Shown piece after piece: positions 7,745-24,001 of a stretch of 24,001 nucleotides of DNA. The stretch spans positions 1 to 24,001 of the IMG/VR virus record IMGVR_UViG_3300027320_000052; one strand, 5' to 3'. The position numbers and the translations under genes were made by a program. Numbering within the stretch: the first letter of the stretch is position 1; each line of letters begins with the position of its first letter. The notes below the pieces were generated by a model. It searched no databases, was not told the DNA's origin, and saw nothing but the letters and a program-made list of their open reading frames with translations. This DNA comes from a virus.

Positions 7745-8758
7745 TTAGGGGGTCAGGAGTTGGGTGTTGAGGGTAAGTGCTACGAGATCCATGGATGCGC
7801 CGGTGGCATTGTGCCAATCGCGGGCGGCTTGGCGCAGGGCTTCGCGTTGGGCGTGGGTGTACCACTGCTCGTCCGTCCACTTGTGCTTGGCCATCCACTC
7901 TTCGGCTGCGGATGTTGTAGAGATACCGAGGCGATTCCACATGCGGGTGCTGGCGGCGTAGATGTCTTCGGCGCTGGCGACGATGCCGAGGCACTGCGCG
8001 AGTTCCGCGATAAGGCAGAGGTCGGTGGAGGCGTCGCGGTCGGCGTGGCTGGCGTAGTGGTGGAGGCGCTTGCCATCGCCCACAGGAAGATCGTTTGAGA
8101 GTAGGGCCGTGAGATTCGCCGTGTGGATATGCTGCGGGATGTCGCGGAGCTGTGGAGCGGCAACGTGCTGGGCGTGCCGTATCGCTTCCTCGGCATCGAG
8201 CGCCTTCTGGTCGCGGTAGTTGTCTTTGAGCAGGTCGGCTATAGCTCCCAGGTCTCGGCGGAGGCGAGGCCAACTGCGCTCGACGTAGTAGATCGAGCGG
8301 GCGGCGGCGAGCAGGCTAGGCAACTCGGCGGCGGCGAGCAATCCATCGGCGACAAGGCACTCGGCAGTGGCGCGGATGTTGACGATAGGGATCGAGATGG
8401 CTCGGTAGCCATCCTCGCCGTGGCCGTGCGCGAGCGCGACATCGGCATCGTCCGTGCAGGATTCGTCGGCATACCAACCGGCGATGATTCCGACCGGCTC
8501 GGCTCCGTAGCGAGCGCACTCCACAGCACGGAGCGCCCCGAGGCTTCCTGCCCCTATCACTCGGCACCCTCGCTCGAGGGCGAACAGGATTTCCTTGTGC
8601 CAGGGAGAGAGGCTTTGGTGAAAGAGTCCGTCGATAAGGATGAGCGTATCCGGCCCCTCTGTGGCAGCGGCGGCGATGTCGCCTTGCTGGGCGGGTGGCC
8701 GTAGGTCGGCATCGGCGGGGATGTTGCTGGGGCGTGTGGGGCCAAGGAAGATTTTCAT
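7745..8758 (-). CDS. tfuA: TfuA-like protein, partner of YcaO
   Basis: 337 aa. Family marks in order are FLGPT (4-8), PPAQQGD (21-27), LIDGLF (41-46), WHKEILFAL (53-61), GAGSLGALRAVE (69-80), DDADVALAH (103-111) and VNIRAT (126-131). This is the TfuA core known from trifolitoxin and thioamitide clusters, thought to enhance YcaO thioamidation, possibly by delivering sulfur. The C-terminal 170 residues are helical and less conserved, rich in Arg, Ala and Trp (QREALRQAARDWHNATG). The start overlaps the YcaO stop as ATGA, so the two are made together. It is followed five bases later by a virion gene. No sulfurtransferase or ThiF-like gene is nearby, so sulfide would come from the host. Confidence 0.9.
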   Translation of the reverse strand: MKIFLGPTRPSNIPADADLRPPAQQGDIAAAATEGPDTLILIDGLFHQSLSPWHKEILFALERGCRVIGAGSLGALRAVECARYGAEPVGIIAGWYADESCTDDADVALAHGHGEDGYRAISIPIVNIRATAECLVADGLLAAAELPSLLAAARSIYYVERSWPRLRRDLGAIADLLKDNYRDQKALDAEEAIRHAQHVAAPQLRDIPQHIHTANLTALLSNDLPVGDGKRLHHYASHADRDASTDLCLIAELAQCLGIVASAEDIYAASTRMWNRLGISTTSAAEEWMAKHKWTDEQWYTHAQREALRQAARDWHNATGASMDLVALTLNTQLLTP

Positions 8759-10014
8759 ACGAGGCGGGCGCGGGGTCCGCGCTGAGAATAGTCAAATTTA
8801 TATCCCTCCAGAGTGGGGACGATCACTCGCACCACGGAGCACGGGTAGTCGTGGCTGAACTCATAGACGAGCGGTTCCGGTATGCCTGCGGCATCGAGCG
8901 CGGCACAGAGGGTGTCTATGTCGGCCTCGAAGGTATCGCTGGAGCGGTCGGCGTGGGCGTTGGCCGACGTGATCGGGTGGCGGTAGAGTTGCGCCAGCAT
9001 GGCGGAGTTATCCGCCGCCTTTACCTTCTCGAAGCGTTCGTGGAGAAAATCGTCGCGGGATCCAGCAATCCAGACGGCGCGAGCTTGGATGGTCTCGGTG
9101 AGAGCGCGGGCTTGGGCTACGGCGGGGTCGAGGTGTGCGGCGTAGCCTTTATTGATGCCGTGGCCGTTCTCGCAGTCGATGAGGTAGCAAATGTAGGTGG
9201 GGATCCCAATGTCGCTGGTGACATCGAGGAGGATAGGAGTCACATCGGCATCGCGGATGGTACGGACGAGGCGGGCGACGGTACGGTCGGTCACGGTATC
9301 TAGGTCCACTCGGGGAGATGCGGCGCAAGCTCCCTCATAGGTTCTGCCGAGACCATCGGAGAGCGTAGCGGATCCAGAATAAGCCACCGCATTTTTACCC
9401 TGGGCGATAGCGGTCGCATCTCGCTCGATACACTCGTAGAGCCCCCCAGCGACCGCCTCGGCATAGGTATTGCCAGAGGAGAGGCCGTTCGAGGTCGAGG
9501 CCCATGGGGTCGCCGCAAGAGGGAGTCCGGCTGGGTGCCTTGCTTGGAGAGAGATAGCGCAAGCTGGGACGTAGCGGGCCTTGCCGCTTTGCAATCCATA
9601 GACCTCTACCCAAGGTTGAGGGATGTGGGCATCGACTACGGCTCCAGAGAGGAGCGGGAGACGTGTCTCCGCAGCGTCGCCGAGCTGCGCGGCGGTAGCC
9701 ATGATCGAGCGCACAGGAGCGGTCTCACCCACATGGCGCTCGAAGCCCTCCATCATGGCCGAGCATTTCGCTGCGGCAGGAGTAGCTCCTTTGCCGCTAT
9801 CCACCGCGAGCACGATGGCGTCGGGGCGGATGCACTGGGCCACACAGATCCCGATCCGGTCGAGGCCGGTGATCTCAGCCAGGCGCGTGATGCCTGCGGC
9901 GTGGAAGTATGGGCGCATACGAGCGAGCGTCTGCTCGGGTGTGCAGGCGCGTTGGGCTCCGTCGATGCGGACCTTGGTTACTTCCAGGCGATTTCCAGCG
10001 AACGTAGTAGGCAT
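8755..10014 (-). CDS. ycaO: YcaO-domain peptide-backbone thioamidase (TfuA-associated type)
   Basis: 419 aa from the ATG at 10014; the frame is open to 10077, but that adds a His/Pro-rich stretch inside the upstream gene. YcaO proteins use ATP to phosphorylate a peptide amide oxygen; with TfuA partners they install thioamides (in archaeal McrA and in thioviridamide-type RiPPs). All three YcaO nucleotide/Mg motifs look intact: SAMMEGFER (residues 85-93, Glu89 and Glu92), AGGLYECIERD (189-199, Glu194 and Glu197) and ALTETIQAR (304-312) followed by GSRDD. SGKGATPAAA (73-82) precedes the first. The end lacks the PxPxP tail of azoline-forming YcaOs and reads GPRARLV, which agrees with the thioamide class. 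It is coupled to TfuA by ATGA and embedded in the late virion operon. Confidence 0.9.
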   Translation of the reverse strand: MPTTFAGNRLEVTKVRIDGAQRACTPEQTLARMRPYFHAAGITRLAEITGLDRIGICVAQCIRPDAIVLAVDSGKGATPAAAKCSAMMEGFERHVGETAPVRSIMATAAQLGDAAETRLPLLSGAVVDAHIPQPWVEVYGLQSGKARYVPACAISLQARHPAGLPLAATPWASTSNGLSSGNTYAEAVAGGLYECIERDATAIAQGKNAVAYSGSATLSDGLGRTYEGACAASPRVDLDTVTDRTVARLVRTIRDADVTPILLDVTSDIGIPTYICYLIDCENGHGINKGYAAHLDPAVAQARALTETIQARAVWIAGSRDDFLHERFEKVKAADNSAMLAQLYRHPITSANAHADRSSDTFEADIDTLCAALDAAGIPEPLVYEFSHDYPCSVVRVIVPTLEGYKFDYSQRGPRARLV

Positions 10015-12206
10015 CGGGTAATAAATCTGCGGACGGGTGTGGTGATACGGGTGGCGATAGCTGGGCCGTACTGGCAATAGAGGCGGATCGTTCGGTCGCT
10101 GGCGCTACGCAGCATCGCACGGCGGTAGAGCATCCAGCGCGAGGTCGATGTACCGAAAGCTGCACGGGCGACCCAGCACGCTGCTGCGGCCGCTCCGATG
10201 ACAGCACTCGCTCCAATGGCGGAACCTTGTAGGCCCATATTGGCAGCATCGCTGCTGGCCTTGGCCCCCATGTAGGCTGTCTGGAGGCTGGCGTTGTTGT
10301 TTTGGACCGTGTTCCAGCGGGAATCGAGCATCGAGGCATTCACTCCAGCCACATTTCCCGCCATTTGCGTAGCGTTGTTGTAGGTGTTTCCGATCATCTG
10401 TCCACTTTGACCAAGTGTGCCTTGACCAATGCCGAAAGCGGGATTTACTGCTCGCATGGTCGGATCGGTAGCGATATTGGCTTGAGCTATATTCAGACCA
10501 ATCCCAGCTGCGTTTTGGTAGGCTCCCGCTTGTTGCCCATAAAGATTCGCAGACTGCCCTAACTGTGTCATAGCATAGTTGCCACGCGATATTTGCGAGT
10601 TAATGTCGTTTTGGTTTGCGTTTTGCAGGAAGGCTCGATTCATCTCGACCTGGCGTTGGTTGGCGTCTTGGTTAGCCAAACTGCTTTGTTGGTCATATCC
10701 CGCTTGACTGAGCGCTTGCGATTTTGCGGCATCGTAGGATGCCGCAGAGGCCCCTTGTTCAAACTGGGCATTACTGAGGCCGAGTTGCATGTTTGTATTT
10801 TGGTTTGCAAGACCAGCTTGCAAGGCTCCTTGTTGTTGGAACTCCTGCGCCCTCGCGTTAGCAGCTTGGTTGAGTTGTCCAGCTTGAAGACCAGCTGATT
10901 GATTTGCCAATGCCGCTTGTTGCGCGAGTTGGGCGTTAGATTGCCCCAAAGATAGCCCTGCCTGTTGGTTTGCCAGAGCTGCTTGCATCGCCATCTGGGC
11001 GTCTTGAGAACCGGCTCGGAAACTAAAATCTTGGTTTGATAGTCCGGCCTGCTGGGCATACCCCGCCTCGGCAATAACCCGTTGTTGCGCGTTTTGGTTG
11101 TCTGTGAGTCCGGCTTGCTGAGCGAACTGAGCGTTTTGCATGGCCCGAGATTGCGCGACCGATTGATTGGACAAAGCGGCTTGCTGGGCACGTCCGGAAT
11201 TAGAATCCTGTCTGCCCATGTAGGCTTGGTTTGCTGCTTGCTGTATGCCAGTGGACTGCTGTAGCGCTCCGCTTGCAAATGAGCGTCGCTCGTTTTGTCG
11301 TTGAGTTGCGTAGCGGTCGCGGTTGAGCATTTCGCCTGCAAGCGCTGAGTTGCCTGTTGCCATGCCTCGGGCAGCGAATCCCGAGCGAGCAGATTGAGTG
11401 GCATCGCGCTGTTGTTCCGCCGAGAGAGAGCGCCCTTGCGCTAGTTCTGCTGCGGCTTGTTGCTGGAGTTGGCCTGATAGTCCACCTCCGCTGGCTTCGC
11501 GCATGAGGGCGTTTTCCGCTGCGCTGGCTTGGATGTCGCTGGAGCGCACATCTTGCACTCGACCGACTCGGGCAGATTGCATAGGCCCAACACCAGATAC
11601 CCGCGTGCCTGCCACGCGCTCTGGGGTTCCAGTAGAAGCTGCTTGCACATTTGCTACAGCTCCAGCTTGAGCGGCATTGATTTGTTGAGCGCGGATTTCT
11701 GCTGGGCTGTAACCTCGCGGCCCACTCACATCAGCGACAGGACCGGCTTGCGCTGCTTGCATACGACCTATATCAGAGACTCTCGCCGCCGAGACTTGAT
11801 CGGCTCGTTGCCCCATGGCGCTGGCTCCCAGGCTGGCAATCTGCCCATCAAGCGCTGTAGGCCCTTGAGCAAATTGTTCTGCATTCTGACTTAGATCATT
11901 GGCTCTAGTGGCGACCCCACCGATACGATCTCCTGCCGCAATGAGATTCTCAGTTTGTCCCGCAGCACCTTCCAGAGCCTTATTGGCATTATCTGTGTAA
12001 TCATTATTTAGTATTCCAGAAAGCTTAGAAATCGTCCCAAGCTGAAGCGCTTCCAGTTTTGGGTAGGCTTTGATCTGCGCTTCCAGTTGTTTATTGTATT
12101 GAGTTATGGCTGATCGGTTAGCTTGAGCCATGAGCGCCCCGTAGTCCACGGGTTGCGCTTGTGGAGGTGATGCTTGTTCCTTGGGCTTTGATGGACTTCC
12201 ACCCAT
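9978..12206 (-). CDS. Ala/Gln/Asn-rich virion protein, probable internal or ejected protein
   Basis: 742 aa from the TAATG-coupled ATG (MGGSPSKPKEQ); the frame runs open further up to 12278, but that is inside the previous gene. The N-terminus MGG-PSKPK followed by VDYGALMAQA and a helical segment is familiar from phage internal or tail-tip proteins. Residues about 150-540 are low-complexity Ala/Gln/Asn/Ser with recurring LANQ, QQAGL and AQ units, probably helical or extended rods. The C-terminus (about residues 680-742) has a hydrophobic Gly/Ala segment, then CWVARAAFG with a basic tail resembling the CWVARE-VYG ending of many phage proteins. It overlaps the YcaO start by 37 nt. An ejection or needle role is inferred. 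Confidence 0.7.
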   Translation of the reverse strand: MGGSPSKPKEQASPPQAQPVDYGALMAQANRSAITQYNKQLEAQIKAYPKLEALQLGTISKLSGILNNDYTDNANKALEGAAGQTENLIAAGDRIGGVATRANDLSQNAEQFAQGPTALDGQIASLGASAMGQRADQVSAARVSDIGRMQAAQAGPVADVSGPRGYSPAEIRAQQINAAQAGAVANVQAASTGTPERVAGTRVSGVGPMQSARVGRVQDVRSSDIQASAAENALMREASGGGLSGQLQQQAAAELAQGRSLSAEQQRDATQSARSGFAARGMATGNSALAGEMLNRDRYATQRQNERRSFASGALQQSTGIQQAANQAYMGRQDSNSGRAQQAALSNQSVAQSRAMQNAQFAQQAGLTDNQNAQQRVIAEAGYAQQAGLSNQDFSFRAGSQDAQMAMQAALANQQAGLSLGQSNAQLAQQAALANQSAGLQAGQLNQAANARAQEFQQQGALQAGLANQNTNMQLGLSNAQFEQGASAASYDAAKSQALSQAGYDQQSSLANQDANQRQVEMNRAFLQNANQNDINSQISRGNYAMTQLGQSANLYGQQAGAYQNAAGIGLNIAQANIATDPTMRAVNPAFGIGQGTLGQSGQMIGNTYNNATQMAGNVAGVNASMLDSRWNTVQNNNASLQTAYMGAKASSDAANMGLQGSAIGASAVIGAAAAACWVARAAFGTSTSRWMLYRRAMLRSASDRTIRLYCQYGPAIATRITTPVRRFITRCLLRSLEIAWK

Positions 12207-14556: not shown

Positions 14557-16452
14557 TTAGTTAAGGGTACGAGTGTTGGCGGCGGCGTATTGTGATTGCG
14601 TGGACTCCACTGAGATTTTGCGTAGCACGGGTCTCCCCGTGATCGTGCGGAACCGCAGATCGACGGAGGTAGCCTTGCATCGCATCGGCGCCTTAAGCGT
14701 GTAGTCCTCCGCCTCGTCGCTAGTGTTAGCGAGGGCCGCGACTTGAAAGTCATTATCAAAGTCCACCGTGACCGCATCGAGCGCACAGGAGGACTCCGGC
14801 GCAAGGAGGACACTCGCCTTCGAGCGCACAATCCTCTTCGCATCCAGCGTGCCGAAGGCGTAGCTGCGAGTTTGCAACAGACCATCGACGGGCGTGTAGG
14901 CGTCGTCCGTATTTGCATAAGGCACATCGTCGCCACGTTCATTTTCGTCGAGGAGGAATAACGTGCCACTGCGTGCTGCCGTGTGGAGGCGGCGTTGTTT
15001 GTTGAAATCCGCCACGATCAGCTCATCTAGGGCCACCGAATACGAGTCCTTCGACTCCCATTGTTGGTTCAGCGCATTCCAGATGAACATCGCGTTATTG
15101 TTGAGCGCGCTGTCGCCTATCGGCACAGCCAGGTAGTAGCGGTTCGCCCACCACTTAGCCGTCGCCTTGTATACTTGCGTCGGGTTGATCTCTTCCATCT
15201 GGTCCGAGATAGTGTCCGAGAGCGGCTGAGTATTTGCGCGGAGTTTTAGATCGAGCTGGGTATCCAGCCGGTAAACTCCCGAGTCCGATAAAAAAAAGAC
15301 AAACTGCCCCGCCGTCACTATCGACCGCCGAGCCACGCACCCGATCTCGTCCGTGAGGAGAGTGATGCGACTCACCGCCGCATCCACCGTGAACTCCGTC
15401 GCATTCGCATTCGACACATCGGCCAGATTGGCAAGCCAGATCGAGTTGCGCATAAATATGAGCGCCTGCCCCTCCACCCACGGATGCAGCGCCACCAGGT
15501 AGTCGTTGCTGCCTTGGTTGGCGCGGAAGGATTGGAAGAAGGGATCGTAGAGGTCGGGGTCCAGCACATCGCTGATCGCCACCGTATCGCGGCCGTCGGG
15601 GATCCACAGGCGGTTGCCAATGTAGGCCGCCCAGCCCACCGAGCGCATCCCCTTGTACGTTGCGTGCGCGGGCGGTATGCCGCCCTCCGCTTTTTGAAAG
15701 TGAGTTGTCGACCCGTCCCACCAGAGCGGAGGCTTGACCCGCCGCACCGTTGCCCCACCGGACGAGAGGGTGCCACTAGGCACAGCAACCGTAAAAGCAT
15801 TTGCCGTCACAGGATTGATCACATCGAATTCATGGCCGGCAAATGCCGCCTCATCGCCATTTTCAATCCGCACACGCATACCGGCAGAGTATCCATGAGC
15901 CGCAACATTTACCGTCGCAGCCGTTCCAGAGACCACTATGCCAGCAGTGTTCACCTCACCCCACCCAGGCAGAGTGGCATCCGCCTCGCGCAGCAGATAG
16001 AACCGGTTGAATGCTTGTATGCAAGTCGCTTGGTCGCTCTGTTCCAATAGCTCTTGGATCGACGCTCCTGGGAACGAGAGATTGATCTCCTCGATATTAG
16101 CCACATCTTGCCGGTACAGAAACGCCGACGACGGCCCGCACAGGACAATGTATTCATTCGCGTCGAAATAGTTGGGCGACGAAAAAACGCCACTCGCTAG
16201 GATGCCCCCCGAGTACGAGGTTCGGATTTTTGCATTTGCGTCGAGGATAAATGGCAGCACCAGTGGTTGTGCTCCAGACGAGATCTCATCGCCCAGCCGC
16301 TTCGCGCCCTTGCGCGTCTGCGCGACACCTCGGTCCAGCCGCATATTTTCGCACCGCTGCACCATCCCTGGCTGGAGCTGGAGCGGGTTGAGCCGCGACG
16401 CCATGCCGATGAATCCGGCATCTCCTTCTACTATGGGTTGGTCGTCGAGCAT
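14557..16452 (-). CDS. Tail nozzle-like beta-propeller protein
   Basis: 631 aa. The N-terminal stretch (GFIGMASRLNPLQLQPGMVQ, then AENM-like ENMRLDRGVAQTRKGAKRL) is the classic opening of phage tail nozzle/tubular-B-type proteins. The body has propeller-like strands, including YIGNRLWIPDGRDTVAISD, FLSDSGVYRLD and WWANRYYLAVPIGD, then MFIWNALNQQWESKD. In podoviruses this protein forms the distal tube of the short tail. Residues about 172-238 hold an inserted AHG-type beta module (AAHGYSAGMRVRIENGD, VTANAFTVAVPSG) that also appears in the next gene. It starts at the promoter-like element, and its stop is six bases before the fibre start. Confidence 0.8.
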   Translation of the reverse strand: MLDDQPIVEGDAGFIGMASRLNPLQLQPGMVQRCENMRLDRGVAQTRKGAKRLGDEISSGAQPLVLPFILDANAKIRTSYSGGILASGVFSSPNYFDANEYIVLCGPSSAFLYRQDVANIEEINLSFPGASIQELLEQSDQATCIQAFNRFYLLREADATLPGWGEVNTAGIVVSGTAATVNVAAHGYSAGMRVRIENGDEAAFAGHEFDVINPVTANAFTVAVPSGTLSSGGATVRRVKPPLWWDGSTTHFQKAEGGIPPAHATYKGMRSVGWAAYIGNRLWIPDGRDTVAISDVLDPDLYDPFFQSFRANQGSNDYLVALHPWVEGQALIFMRNSIWLANLADVSNANATEFTVDAAVSRITLLTDEIGCVARRSIVTAGQFVFFLSDSGVYRLDTQLDLKLRANTQPLSDTISDQMEEINPTQVYKATAKWWANRYYLAVPIGDSALNNNAMFIWNALNQQWESKDSYSVALDELIVADFNKQRRLHTAARSGTLFLLDENERGDDVPYANTDDAYTPVDGLLQTRSYAFGTLDAKRIVRSKASVLLAPESSCALDAVTVDFDNDFQVAALANTSDEAEDYTLKAPMRCKATSVDLRFRTITGRPVLRKISVESTQSQYAAANTRTLN

Positions 16453-16482
16453 CTAGTTGTAAGTATGCGGGAGCGTGTCAAG
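16451..16482 (-). promoter_or_regulatory. Promoter-like element, copy 2
   Basis: This lies between the endolysin stop and the tail nozzle ATG. On the minus strand it reads CTTGACAC, CTCC, CATACT, then TAGAT running into the ATG, matching copy 1 (21722-21753) at 25 of 32 positions with identical spacing. The start codon lies within or just after the element, so transcription starting here would give a very short leader. A phage-specific promoter, host promoter or operator are all possible. Confidence 0.45.
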
Positions 16483-16993
16483 CCCCTCTCGGGTGGATGC
16501 GGATAAAGTTTCGCGCGATGGATTTTGGTCGCGTCTTGCGCCAGACCCCATCACCCGTCGCGCTATCGCGATCCCCTCGCCCATTCGTGTTGCCCTCGAT
16601 CGTGATGAGCTTGTCGTCCGCATCGAACTCCACGATCCCGACGTGAGAAAAATCAAATACCACGATATCGCCAGGGTGCGCCTGCGCCGTGTCGGGGTGG
16701 ATGGATACCGTCTTCGGGCGGGCTTTGGCCCAGTCGAGAAAACCATACGCCAGCGCCGTCTTCGGCCGCCACTGGTCCGGCGTCGAGACTTGCAGCCCCA
16801 GCCAACCCGCCACACCAGGCTCCGCCAGCCACTTCGACACGCACCAATCCACAAAGGCCGCGCACCAAGGCCAATCGTCGGGCGCAAGATTCGTCGCCCG
16901 CTGGAAAGCGCGGATTGCGTTGCCGCAATTATTCCCGCCCTCCTCGCGAGTCCCGATCTGCCTCGCAGCTACGGCAACGAGTCGGTCAATCAT
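16478..16993 (-). CDS. Endolysin, CHAP/NlpC-P60-type peptidoglycan hydrolase
   Basis: 171 aa, a single catalytic domain. The motif WPWCAAFVDWC puts the nucleophile at Cys44, HPGDIVVFDFSHVGIVEF supplies His117, and TIEGNTN (residues 131-137) supplies the polar third residue; this order and spacing are those of CHAP-type amidase/endopeptidases that cut peptide bonds in peptidoglycan. The N-terminal MIDRLVAVAARQIGTREEGGNN also fits that family (usually written A-QIG-EE-GNN). It has no signal peptide, so it depends on the upstream holin-like protein for access to the wall. It is coupled to the lipoprotein gene by ATGA. The GCTTGACA of the second promoter-like element overlaps its stop codon. Confidence 0.85.
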   Translation of the reverse strand: MIDRLVAVAARQIGTREEGGNNCGNAIRAFQRATNLAPDDWPWCAAFVDWCVSKWLAEPGVAGWLGLQVSTPDQWRPKTALAYGFLDWAKARPKTVSIHPDTAQAHPGDIVVFDFSHVGIVEFDADDKLITIEGNTNGRGDRDSATGDGVWRKTRPKSIARNFIRIHPRGA

Positions 16994-21164: not shown

Positions 21165-21437
21165 CTAAAACTCACCGCCGTCCGAATCGGCGACGATGGG
21201 GATGTAGGAAAGTGTGTCGGGGTCCCAACGGTGCGGGACATTGTTATCAGCCGAAAAATAAATGCGGGCCACGACGCCCACTTGCGGGAAGTCGGCGAGG
21301 GTCGAAAAACGCTGCACGTCGTCGAAGTCGTCGGGGATCAGATCGCTGGAAAGCTGGCCCGAGGAATCGAGCTGCGCGACCTGAGCGGTCGAGCTGATCA
21401 TGCTTCCGGTGAGGGGGTCAAAGGAGATTTGCGACAT
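21165..21437 (-). CDS. Small fibre-associated virion protein
   Basis: 90 aa. The N-terminal part (FDPLTGSM, AQVAQLDSSGQL) leads into a module with the pattern FPQVGVVARIYFSADNNVPHRW, which resembles the short beta module in phage fibre proteins that usually reads like GKIYVA-D-N-TYRW followed by Y-I. The protein ends in DGGEF; the next gene ends in DGGSF. It starts inside the upstream stop (TAATG). It probably belongs to the fibre or baseplate-like complex with its neighbours. Function beyond structure cannot be read. Confidence 0.6.
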   Translation of the reverse strand: MSQISFDPLTGSMISSTAQVAQLDSSGQLSSDLIPDDFDDVQRFSTLADFPQVGVVARIYFSADNNVPHRWDPDTLSYIPIVADSDGGEF

Positions 21438-21721
21438 TAGAAAGGGGGATACTGGATGAAGGAGGTTTGAAGCTGGGCATTGTCGGTGGTAGGAACGCCA
21501 CCGAAATAAGTCATCTTGATGCGGGCGACGGCGGTTCCGCTAAAGCTGTATTCCGTGTAGTCGGTGTTGTTCGTGGACCCGACTTTGAAGATTTGGAATT
21601 TGTCGTAGAGTGGTAGCGCAAAGCCTGTGGTGACTCGCAGAGCCCCATCTGGCGTGGCTTGCACGGGTTGCACTATGCCAGCGGAACTGCGGGCGGCGAT
21701 CTGAATGGTGGGATTACTCAT
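21437..21721 (-). CDS. Small virion protein, hypothetical
   Basis: 94 aa, beta-rich, without membrane segment or signal peptide. The segment PVQATPDGALRVTTG followed by aromatic and Thr/Gly-rich strands recalls small structural proteins found in phage fibre regions, but I cannot name a family. It is the first gene after the promoter-like element and its stop overlaps the next start as TAATG, so it opens a coupled group of small virion genes. Its leader is A-rich with no Shine-Dalgarno sequence. A head-tail or fibre decoration role is inferred from position only. Confidence 0.6.
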   Translation of the reverse strand: MSNPTIQIAARSSAGIVQPVQATPDGALRVTTGFALPLYDKFQIFKVGSTNNTDYTEYSFSGTAVARIKMTYFGGVPTTDNAQLQTSFIQYPPF

Positions 21722-21753
21722 ATCTATTTTTTATTATGGAGGAGGGTGTCAAG
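21722..21753 (-). promoter_or_regulatory. Promoter-like element, copy 1
   Basis: The 39-bp gap before the gene starting at 21721 reads, on the minus strand, CTTGACAC, then CTCC, then CATAAT, an A-run and TAGAT just before the ATG. The same layout recurs at 16451-16482 before the tail nozzle gene (25 of 32 positions identical). TTGACA resembles a sigma70 -35 box, but CATAAT lies only 8 nt after it, so a classical 17-bp promoter is not obvious. It could be a host promoter with a poorly matched -10, or a phage-specific promoter or operator. No Shine-Dalgarno sequence is present. Confidence 0.45.
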
Positions 21754-21760
21754 TGGGGGG

Positions 21761-22699
21761 TTAGTTGAAGCGAGCAGTCCAAGTGCGCACCTCGCCCTTG
21801 CGCAGCCAGGCGTCGTCCATGCGTTGCTGTAAGATGCCCTCAGCACGGGCGAACTGGAAGTTAGCCTTGTCCGTCTGGCCGTCCTCCGAAAGTGTCTCCG
21901 CGAGGGCGTAGAATTTCAGATAGTCGGAAAGGAACGAAGGCACGCGGTAGCGGCGCCAGTATTCCGAATCGCTCGGAAGGTTGCCGGTCGTGGCTTTGCG
22001 GGCGACATAGCAATCGCCGGTCGTGTTGTAATACACGACATCTCCGGCAGAGTAAGCGGCACCGGCAGAGTACTCGTCCGTCGTGAAGCGCGGCTGCGGA
22101 AGAAGGAACTGCACCCACACATTGCCCGTCTCGCTTGTCGCGTCGGTGAGCAGCACACGGTCCTCGTTAAGCAGATACCGCACCTTGCGGGCATAGACTC
22201 CGCTCGTCGGGTCAGCGTCCCATATAGCCATGATCTCGCCGATGGGAGAGAAGTTATCTTGGTCAAACAGGATGTAGGGAATCTCGGCGTCGTTATTTGT
22301 GGAAACCGCATAGGTCGCCGAGGCACGGGAATCCCACGCGACATTCACCGCCGTCTCGACCGAGAGCACATCGCCGTTGTTATTTGTCGTGATCTTCTTC
22401 ACACGCCACAGCAAGTCGGTCGTCTCCGAGTTAGCCGGAGCACGGCCAAAAAAGGCAACGGTGCCGACATAATCGGAGAGGTAGGTGTAGCCAGTAACAA
22501 ACCAAGCCGAGCCATTCGGGGTGCGTTCCTCGGTGAGATAAATTTCCGGCCAATCGAAGAACGTCCACGATGTCGCGGCAGCGGTAGTCAAATACTCCGC
22601 CAGAGCCGTCGCCTGCGAATCCATGAGCGTCTGCGCGGGATCAATGCCCATGCGGGAGATCACGCCATCACGAATGGATTTGTAAGAGGTCGTCCTCAT
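21761..22699 (-). CDS. Virion structural protein, probable head-tail adaptor, with carbohydrate-binding-like insert
   Basis: A 312-aa protein directly after the portal and translationally coupled to it by an ATGA overlap. Position and the N-terminal helical part (residues 1-50, with a SWTFFDWPEIYL segment) suggest the connector or tail-tube protein that docks under the portal, comparable in role to T7 gp11. Residues about 215-250 (AYSAGDVVYY, CYVARKATTGNLP, then YW) look like the small aromatic module of CBM5/12 chitin-binding type that many phage structural proteins carry. The last 60 residues are helical (FLSDYLKFYALAETL). The adaptor role is inferred from position; the module call is from motif spacing (GD-V, Y-A, P, W). 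Confidence 0.6.
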   Translation of the reverse strand: MRTTSYKSIRDGVISRMGIDPAQTLMDSQATALAEYLTTAAATSWTFFDWPEIYLTEERTPNGSAWFVTGYTYLSDYVGTVAFFGRAPANSETTDLLWRVKKITTNNNGDVLSVETAVNVAWDSRASATYAVSTNNDAEIPYILFDQDNFSPIGEIMAIWDADPTSGVYARKVRYLLNEDRVLLTDATSETGNVWVQFLLPQPRFTTDEYSAGAAYSAGDVVYYNTTGDCYVARKATTGNLPSDSEYWRRYRVPSFLSDYLKFYALAETLSEDGQTDKANFQFARAEGILQQRMDDAWLRKGEVRTWTARFN

Positions 22700-24001
22700 T
22701 GTTGCGGGGATTGTTGCTGCATTTGCTCGGCGACCTTTTGGAGTCCAGGCTGGGCGCCGACGCGGCCGATCTGGGCGTTCTGTTGTTGCTGTAACTGGAA
22801 GGAGAAAGACTCCATGCGGGCGGTGAGCATGGCGGCGAAGATTTGATCCTGCTGGAGGCGCTGCTGGATAGCCGGATTGCTCTGGATGATGTTTTGCAGA
22901 GTCTGCAAACGGAGTTGGAAATTTTGGCCCTCGCTCTTGAGCGGTGGCTCGGCGCCGGCGGCAATCTTCGTAAACTGCACCTGCTCGTCGTCCATCTCCT
23001 GCTGGCTGGCGGCATCCGCATCGCGGACAAGCAGGCCGGCGAGATTCGGATCGATGGATCCGAAGAGGAATTTGACAAGACCTGCGCGGTCGATGACGCC
23101 TTCCGTATCGAGAGGGATGAGCTGGGTGAGCCCTTGCATTTTGATCTTCAGAGCCTCGGAGTCGAGGGTGCGGGCGTCGAAGTCGAGGCGCAAATCGTAC
23201 TTACCCTGGATATCCTGGCGGCTTGCGCGGAATGGGGTGGGCAGGCCGCCGGCGACGCGGACGAACTGGATATCGTCGAGGTACTGCTGACACAGCTGGA
23301 AGGTCTGGCCAAGGATGAGTGCCATGTCGGCGAGCCAAGTATCAACGAGATCCTGCTGGGCGAGGAGCGCCCGCTGGGGTGCCATGTCGGCACGGGGGAT
23401 GCCGAAATACTCGTCAACGTCTCGCCGAGTCGCCGCCTCGATCTCAATCGTGCCCATGTCATTTGCAGGTGGGGCCATCCATTGGAATTCGCCTGGTCGG
23501 CGCTCGGGGAGTTGTTTTGCCGGCCCGAGGACGATGTCCATCTTCCCGCGATTGGCGGGGACTTTGAGCGGGGGCAGAATAGTGAGCGAGGCGCGGTCGC
23601 TGCGGTAATCGCGCTGGACCTTGATCTCGCTCTGCTGAGTGGCGACGAGCTCTGGCACGCCTCGGGACTCGATGAGAGGGCGAGAGGTGCGCTCGAGCGG
23701 CAACTCAACAAAGGGGTAGTGGCCGTGCTCGTAGCCCATGGCCTCTGATTTGGCGACACGGTCCACGACGCTCGGCTGGATGTGGGTGCACCAGACCTCC
23801 ATAGCGCCGATCTGCTCGTTCCATTTCTTCTGGTAAACGCGCCAGACCTCGATCATATCCCGCTCGTCGGAGAGCAGGAGGGAGTCGGTGACGCGGTACA
23901 TGTTCCGAGCGTTGCGTCGGTTGACGCCGGTGTGCTTGACGGCCTCCTCGATCCAGCGTGGGTCGTAGTCTTCGGTGATCTCGCGCTCGCGGAGCTCGTC
24001 C
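22696..24001 (-). CDS. Portal protein (5' end beyond window)
   Basis: This is the C-terminal 434 residues of a podovirus-type portal, the dodecameric ring at the capsid vertex through which DNA passes. The frame stays open to the window edge, so the first ATG visible (23901) is internal and the true start lies outside. Recognisable parts are a GVPELVATQQSEI stretch followed by a basic segment and ILPPLKVP, which matches the middle of portal proteins, then a YFGIPRADM segment and a Gln-rich C-terminal tail (about the last 90 residues, ending QQQSPQQ) that is probably coiled coil. The stop overlaps the start of the adaptor-like gene by ATGA. No capsid gene lies between portal and adaptor, so the capsid gene must be upstream of the portal. 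Family assignment rests on recalled sequence pattern, not on a search. Confidence 0.85.
   Translation of the reverse strand, partial: DELREREITEDYDPRWIEEAVKHTGVNRRNARNMYRVTDSLLLSDERDMIEVWRVYQKKWNEQIGAMEVWCTHIQPSVVDRVAKSEAMGYEHGHYPFVELPLERTSRPLIESRGVPELVATQQSEIKVQRDYRSDRASLTILPPLKVPANRGKMDIVLGPAKQLPERRPGEFQWMAPPANDMGTIEIEAATRRDVDEYFGIPRADMAPQRALLAQQDLVDTWLADMALILGQTFQLCQQYLDDIQFVRVAGGLPTPFRASRQDIQGKYDLRLDFDARTLDSEALKIKMQGLTQLIPLDTEGVIDRAGLVKFLFGSIDPNLAGLLVRDADAASQQEMDDEQVQFTKIAAGAEPPLKSEGQNFQLRLQTLQNIIQSNPAIQQRLQQDQIFAAMLTARMESFSFQLQQQQNAQIGRVGAQPGLQKVAEQMQQQSPQQ

Follow-up and report, generated by a model that had tools for sequence, protein, structure and literature searches.

Two gene starts about 5 kb apart in a viral DNA of 24,001 nucleotides (the window, meaning the whole stretch analysed) are preceded on the minus strand by similar sequences, which raises the question of whether these form a regulatory element and, if so, what reads it. 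The two copies, CTTGACACGCTCCCGCATACTTACAACTAGAT (16482->16451) and CTTGACACCCTCCTCCATAATAAAAAATAGAT (21753->21722), agree at 25 of their 32 positions, as the preliminary description of this DNA had reported. The pattern common to both was confined to 16451-16482 and 21722-21753 within the window and occurred in none of 100 dinucleotide shuffles, and a 16-base core, allowing at most 3 mismatches, was seen twice in the window where 0.11 occurrences were expected. Bare 25/32 matches are frequent, with 23 pairs on one strand of the window versus 0-3 in Markov sequences; this surplus is presumably for the most part repetitive coding sequence. Because such a match is common in the window, the case for the element rests on its relatives.

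Comparison with those relatives retained the first part of the proposed 32 nt and removed the last. The 16451 copy ends in the A and T of that gene's own ATG, and at the 21722 site TAGAT is replaced by AACGAT or AACGAC in most relatives; the trailing TAGAT part of the match therefore appears to be incidental, and the real element is the first ~21 nt, TTGACA-N8-CATA(A/C)T. Site A consists of the upstream TTGACA box (21747..21752), an 8-bp C-rich spacer, CCCTCCTC (21739..21746), and a -10-like CATAAT box (21733..21738) that stands 11 nt before the ATG (21721-21719) of gene A (21437..21721), the first gene after the site, which encodes 94 aa. In site B, the TTGACA box (16476..16481) overlaps the TGA stop codon (16478-16480) of the upstream endolysin gene, which has a CHAP domain (16478..16993), and is followed by the 8-bp spacer CGCTCCCG (16468..16475) and a -10-like CATACT box (16462..16467) 9 nt before the ATG of gene B (14557..16452), which encodes a 631-aa virion structural protein with a weak match to phrog_3287. 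All of these natural sites and genes are on the minus strand, as is the 312-aa gene upstream of site A (21761..22699), whose product is likely a neck or head-completion protein, a role assigned by position only. The portal gene (22696-23901) was used as a query for relatives.

Viral contigs contained exact matches to CTTGACACNCTCCNNCATA in 29 stretches, about 20 of which are relatives; in these the element precedes the same two genes, and several carry both copies about 5 kb apart. Gene B and portal searches added more than 100 further loci, and TTGACA-N8/9-(C/T)A(T/C/G/A)A(A/C)T recurred upstream of the relatives of genes A and B. TTGACA-N8/9-NANAAT is fitted by 103 of the 108 distinct upstream sequences, which represent five kinds of gene start; sites belonging to a single gene family are related by descent, and some records, several in number, may be incomplete. 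Over the 103 sites, five positions of TTGACA are invariant and the remaining one is conserved at 98%; the second box keeps A2 and T6 without exception, A4 in 99% and A5 in 89%. The spacer is 8 bp in 84 sites and 9 bp in 19. The second box lies 5-12 nt before the ATG and never closer than 5 nt, and TTGACA lies 26-32 nt before it. A scan for TTGACAN{7,10}HANAAT gave 36 matches in 22 records and none with the reversed control; the 8-9 spacing was enriched on the late strand only, and counts at 13-14 spacing reflect these sites again, read through into their own A-rich tails.

The element was also found in different surroundings. What lies upstream of the site B box varies among phages; at site A of one relative (G012), another gene occupies the place of gene A and the element is retained; and elsewhere it is present before non-homologous late genes with differing upstream genes. 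In fuller genomes, three further kinds of gene start (C, D and E) carry it. It precedes gene C, located after the terminase, and in G013 and G019 it precedes a gene of the internal-virion region. When a loose form of the element was sought 5-13 nt before ORFs of at least 45 aa in 13 genomes, 32 of 34 occurrences were at these late starts; the element was not found at early gene starts. A regulatory role had been proposed from the two copies alone, to be abandoned if relatives held no more of them; many copies are present in relatives and fuller genomes, and about 100 distinct natural sequences, before late genes only, support that role. As putative late promoters, the two-box units offer a pattern by which late transcription units can be marked in genomes of this kind.

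A database-wide scan was made for CTTGACA-N9-TATAAT-N5-8-ATG, with an N12 control. On contigs of at least 55% GC with an ORF behind the site, the N9 pattern gave at least 22 matches versus 1 for the control, and all of the high-GC matches inspected are members of this phage group. On contigs below 55% GC, where an ORF of 100 aa or longer was required, the N9 pattern gave at least 12 matches versus 10, i.e., chance; many of the low-GC N9 TATAAT matches without an ORF were rejected as ordinary promoters out of register (TTGACA-N17-TATGAT). Among the matches listed and inspected, the TTGACA-N9 arrangement before genes thus appears to be restricted to this phage group. Named relatives are only distant (Phage C75C1, 33% in the portal), and the exact motif was not found in them; Phage C75C1 has one loose TTGATT-N7-TATAAT before its portal gene, which was left out of the counts. 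The group is uncultured, mainly freshwater, with genomes of about 41 kb. Direct terminal repeats measure 127 bp in G001, G002, G010, G015 and G016, 113 bp in G009 and 283 bp in G019, and repeats of exactly 127 bp are a k-mer signature left by the assembler on ~41-kb genomes that are circular or terminally redundant.

Both hexamers resemble those of σ70 promoters, with TTGACA near invariant and a (C/T)ATAAT-like second box fixed at A2 and T6 over the 103 sites. The σ70 spacer is normally 16-18 bp, ~17 bp, whereas the spacer here is 8 or 9 bp, and a -10-like hexamer (A2..T6) at N16-19 occurs in just 0-1% of the 103 sites. The distance from TTGACA to the ATG is too short for a normal -35, as transcription would start inside the gene. 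A canonical σ70 -10/-35 promoter was thus ruled out by spacing, and the earlier idea of a host sigma factor holds for the boxes, which are σ70-like, but not for the 8-9 bp spacer, which is unfit for σ70. The sites do not fit the GG at -24 and GC at -12 of σ54 promoters, the invariant GG being missing because the fourth box position is A in 103 of 103 sites. The TGn of extended -10 promoters is practically absent from the main class, in which the spacer end is C-rich.

One lineage carries a natural swap at site B, CATTTTGGCGCGGTGATATTATAGAAGTAG-ATG, which is an extended -10 (TGA-TATTAT) without TTGACA. In L488, a contig of this lineage, site A keeps TTGACA-N8-GATAAT. Whole-record scans found one TTGACA-type site in each of two contigs with the site B variant; the site in the second contig has no gene assignment. 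A changed trans factor was ruled out as the source of the variant, since in L488 TTGACA persists at site A. The swap to TGn at site B, with TTGACA kept at site A, suggests that the second box is a -10 and that TTGACA and TGn are alternative supports for it.

The two elements are probably late promoters, at which host polymerase is engaged through the -10 and a phage activator or antiterminator acts on TTGACA. The host RNA polymerase holoenzyme would read (C/T)ATAAT as the -10, and transcription would start 5-8 nt past it, at or just before the ATG, so that the mRNAs of whole structural-gene blocks would be leaderless or nearly so. A -35 is missing at the normal distance. The TTGACA box, which precedes the -10 by 8-9 bp and lies at about -27 to -21, may instead be the binding site of an activator or loading-type antiterminator that the phage encodes and that would confer late specificity. 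The second box never lies less than 5 nt from the ATG, as expected if the start codon is at or after the transcription start. In the window and in G002, most late genes have no Shine-Dalgarno site, in keeping with starts that are leaderless or nearly so.

The late-promoter model has to account for the choice of box, since TTGACA is the exact consensus of sigma region 4 and an unrelated activator need not choose it. The element sites are common to two lineages, type I and type II, with different early modules, so that the reader of TTGACA should come either from the host or from a phage gene that both lineages have; as activator this leaves gene C, Z81, a further gene common to both or a factor of the host. 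The search for a polymerase, sigma or activator gene called for by the preliminary description turned up small candidate activators, but neither a T7-type polymerase nor a convincing sigma. Gene C, encoded near the terminase, is a small HTH_17/MerR-like protein present in 12 of 12 near-complete relatives. Z81, an 81-aa zinc-finger-like protein with no Pfam match and with an invariant C-x2-C...W.DHPG...C (W-x-DHPG), is likewise present in 12 of 12 near-complete genomes; its gene lies at L173:16328-16573 (G002 36228-36473), shortly before the terminase in G002. Against both, gene C of type II phages starts without the motif, and the AlphaFold model of Z81 is of modest confidence, with no PDB fold match. 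We hypothesize that gene C and Z81 are the best candidates for activators at TTGACA, and a phage-encoded extra factor, rather than σ70 alone, is the more likely partner of the element. No MotA or AsiA relative was recognised in the proteins scanned. An early 274-aa HTH protein gave a poor AlphaFold model.

Known systems share parts of this arrangement. In T4 middle promoters, a TGCTT-like MotA box replaces the -35 at 12 ± 1 bp from the -10 (PMC2988021); these are alike in combining a host -10 with a phage-specific box in place of the -35 (sigma appropriation), but both the box sequence and the 8-9 bp distance differ here. The site of AlpA of P. aeruginosa, GGGACGN5GGTA, lies between the -10 and the -35, with -25 to -22 critical, and AlpA promoters keep the -35 (PMC7969949). 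The position of TTGACA fits that of an activator or antiterminator box, around -25 to -22, in AlpA and lambda Q promoters; here, however, there is no -35, the hexamer about 9 to 4 nt before TTGACA being variable and not TTGACA-like, and the reader of TTGACA is putative. AlpA is a predicted winged-helix protein, whereas the candidate gene C is HTH_17/MerR-like. Late promoters of Thermus phage P23-45 belong to the extended -10 class, with Gp39 displacing sigma region 4 (PMC7403470). Its middle and late promoters likewise rely on the -10 without a -35, and the site B variant is also an extended -10, whereas most sites here are without TGn and have the TTGACA box. None of the AlpA, MotA and P23-45 systems has TTGACA at 8-9 bp, and no description of a short-spaced TTGACA/-10 architecture was found in open PMC papers. 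Textbook promoter hexamers at a distance beyond textbook sigma factors are kept in about 100 natural sequences; if the late-promoter model is true, they would represent a new mode of activation for phage late genes and leaderless structural-gene mRNAs in uncultured phages.

Both boxes could instead be contacted by a sigma factor, either an unusual host or phage sigma or a remodelled one, forming a two-box promoter of new geometry. The match of both boxes to σ70 hexamers, with TTGACA almost invariant, speaks for this, as does a weak σ70 region-4-like HTH that an early type I protein contains and that narrowly passed the cut-off in one genome. Type II genomes with the motif do not have that protein, no convincing sigma factor was found in the proteins scanned, and known sigma spacing is ~17 bp. 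Genes of other phages show no enrichment of the motif in front of them, nor was it found in the rest of the only MAG with a relative, a GTDB delta-proteobacterial MAG (Erken bin-6818) that may not be the host. The relative in question is a 9-kb contig (L205) at 58.5% GC versus 62-66% for sampled contigs of the MAG, a gap that means it may be mis-binned, and no gene B relative was found in 97 related genomes. We consider this sigma explanation unlikely. It is quite unlikely that a bacterial-type polymerase uses the hexamers 8-9 bp apart through a phage-rebuilt or replaced sigma whose region 4 reaches about one helical turn closer; to our knowledge, no holoenzyme has such a reach. The preliminary description had also named a phage polymerase, and a ~23-bp promoter of a single-subunit (T7-like or divergent) enzyme would agree with the length of the element, its place just before genes, as in T7-class promoters, and its specificity to this phage group among the matches inspected. 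That proposal gained nothing from the search for such an enzyme: PF00940 had no match in 12 near-complete relatives, some of which may be incomplete records, while the T7 control matched at 1e-109, and no large polymerase-like early gene was found in the five genomes with ORFs listed. The alternation of 8 and 9 bp and the extended -10 swap also fit a bacterial -10 and not a rigid site, and we give this origin scarcely any credence.

Two further explanations involve no promoter. A boundary sequence kept for module exchange by recombination would suit the change of sequence upstream of site B and the replaced gene behind a retained element in G012; it is very unlikely, as it leaves unexplained the σ70-like boxes, the narrow distance to the ATG, the fixed hexamers around a loose spacer and the extended -10 substitution. 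The element might also act in the mRNA, as a leader or context for initiation without a Shine-Dalgarno site, given that the late genes generally have none and that their leaders in this phage group are often C-rich, then A-rich; the A-rich tail and some of the spacer may contribute to initiation. Other late genes, however, have such leaders without TTGACA or a -10 box, and fixed hexamers with a varying spacer are the signature of a DNA-protein contact, so that a leader function in place of a promoter is also highly improbable. The late-promoter model is our preferred reading.

A different element, aaaaaaacaCTTGACACnCnCATAAA, was observed in the early region of all seven type II genomes, on the strand opposite to the late genes (oriented coordinates G001 32683, G007 7831, G010 32080, G014 38734, G015 39779, G016 31045 and G018 36235). 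It contains a TTGACA box with no consistent -10 at N8/9 or N17, is followed by a GC-rich inverted repeat and an A/T tract, and is possibly a terminator or operator. Within the phage structural cassette, the window also carries a YcaO gene (8755-10077, minus strand; PF02624, 2e-60) paired with a TfuA gene (7745-8758, minus strand; PF07812, 7e-34). Such a pair is typical of thioamide or azoline peptide modification, and of the 12 other genomes in the comparison, 3 have relatives of it (G002, G016 and G018). Other cargo in the same region of relatives comprises a PAPS-reductase-domain protein (PF01507) and a SET-domain protein (PF00856), at L190:1524-2597 (G010), at about 22136-23287 of G001, where the assignment is by sequence resemblance only, and at L172:13621-14016 (G002).
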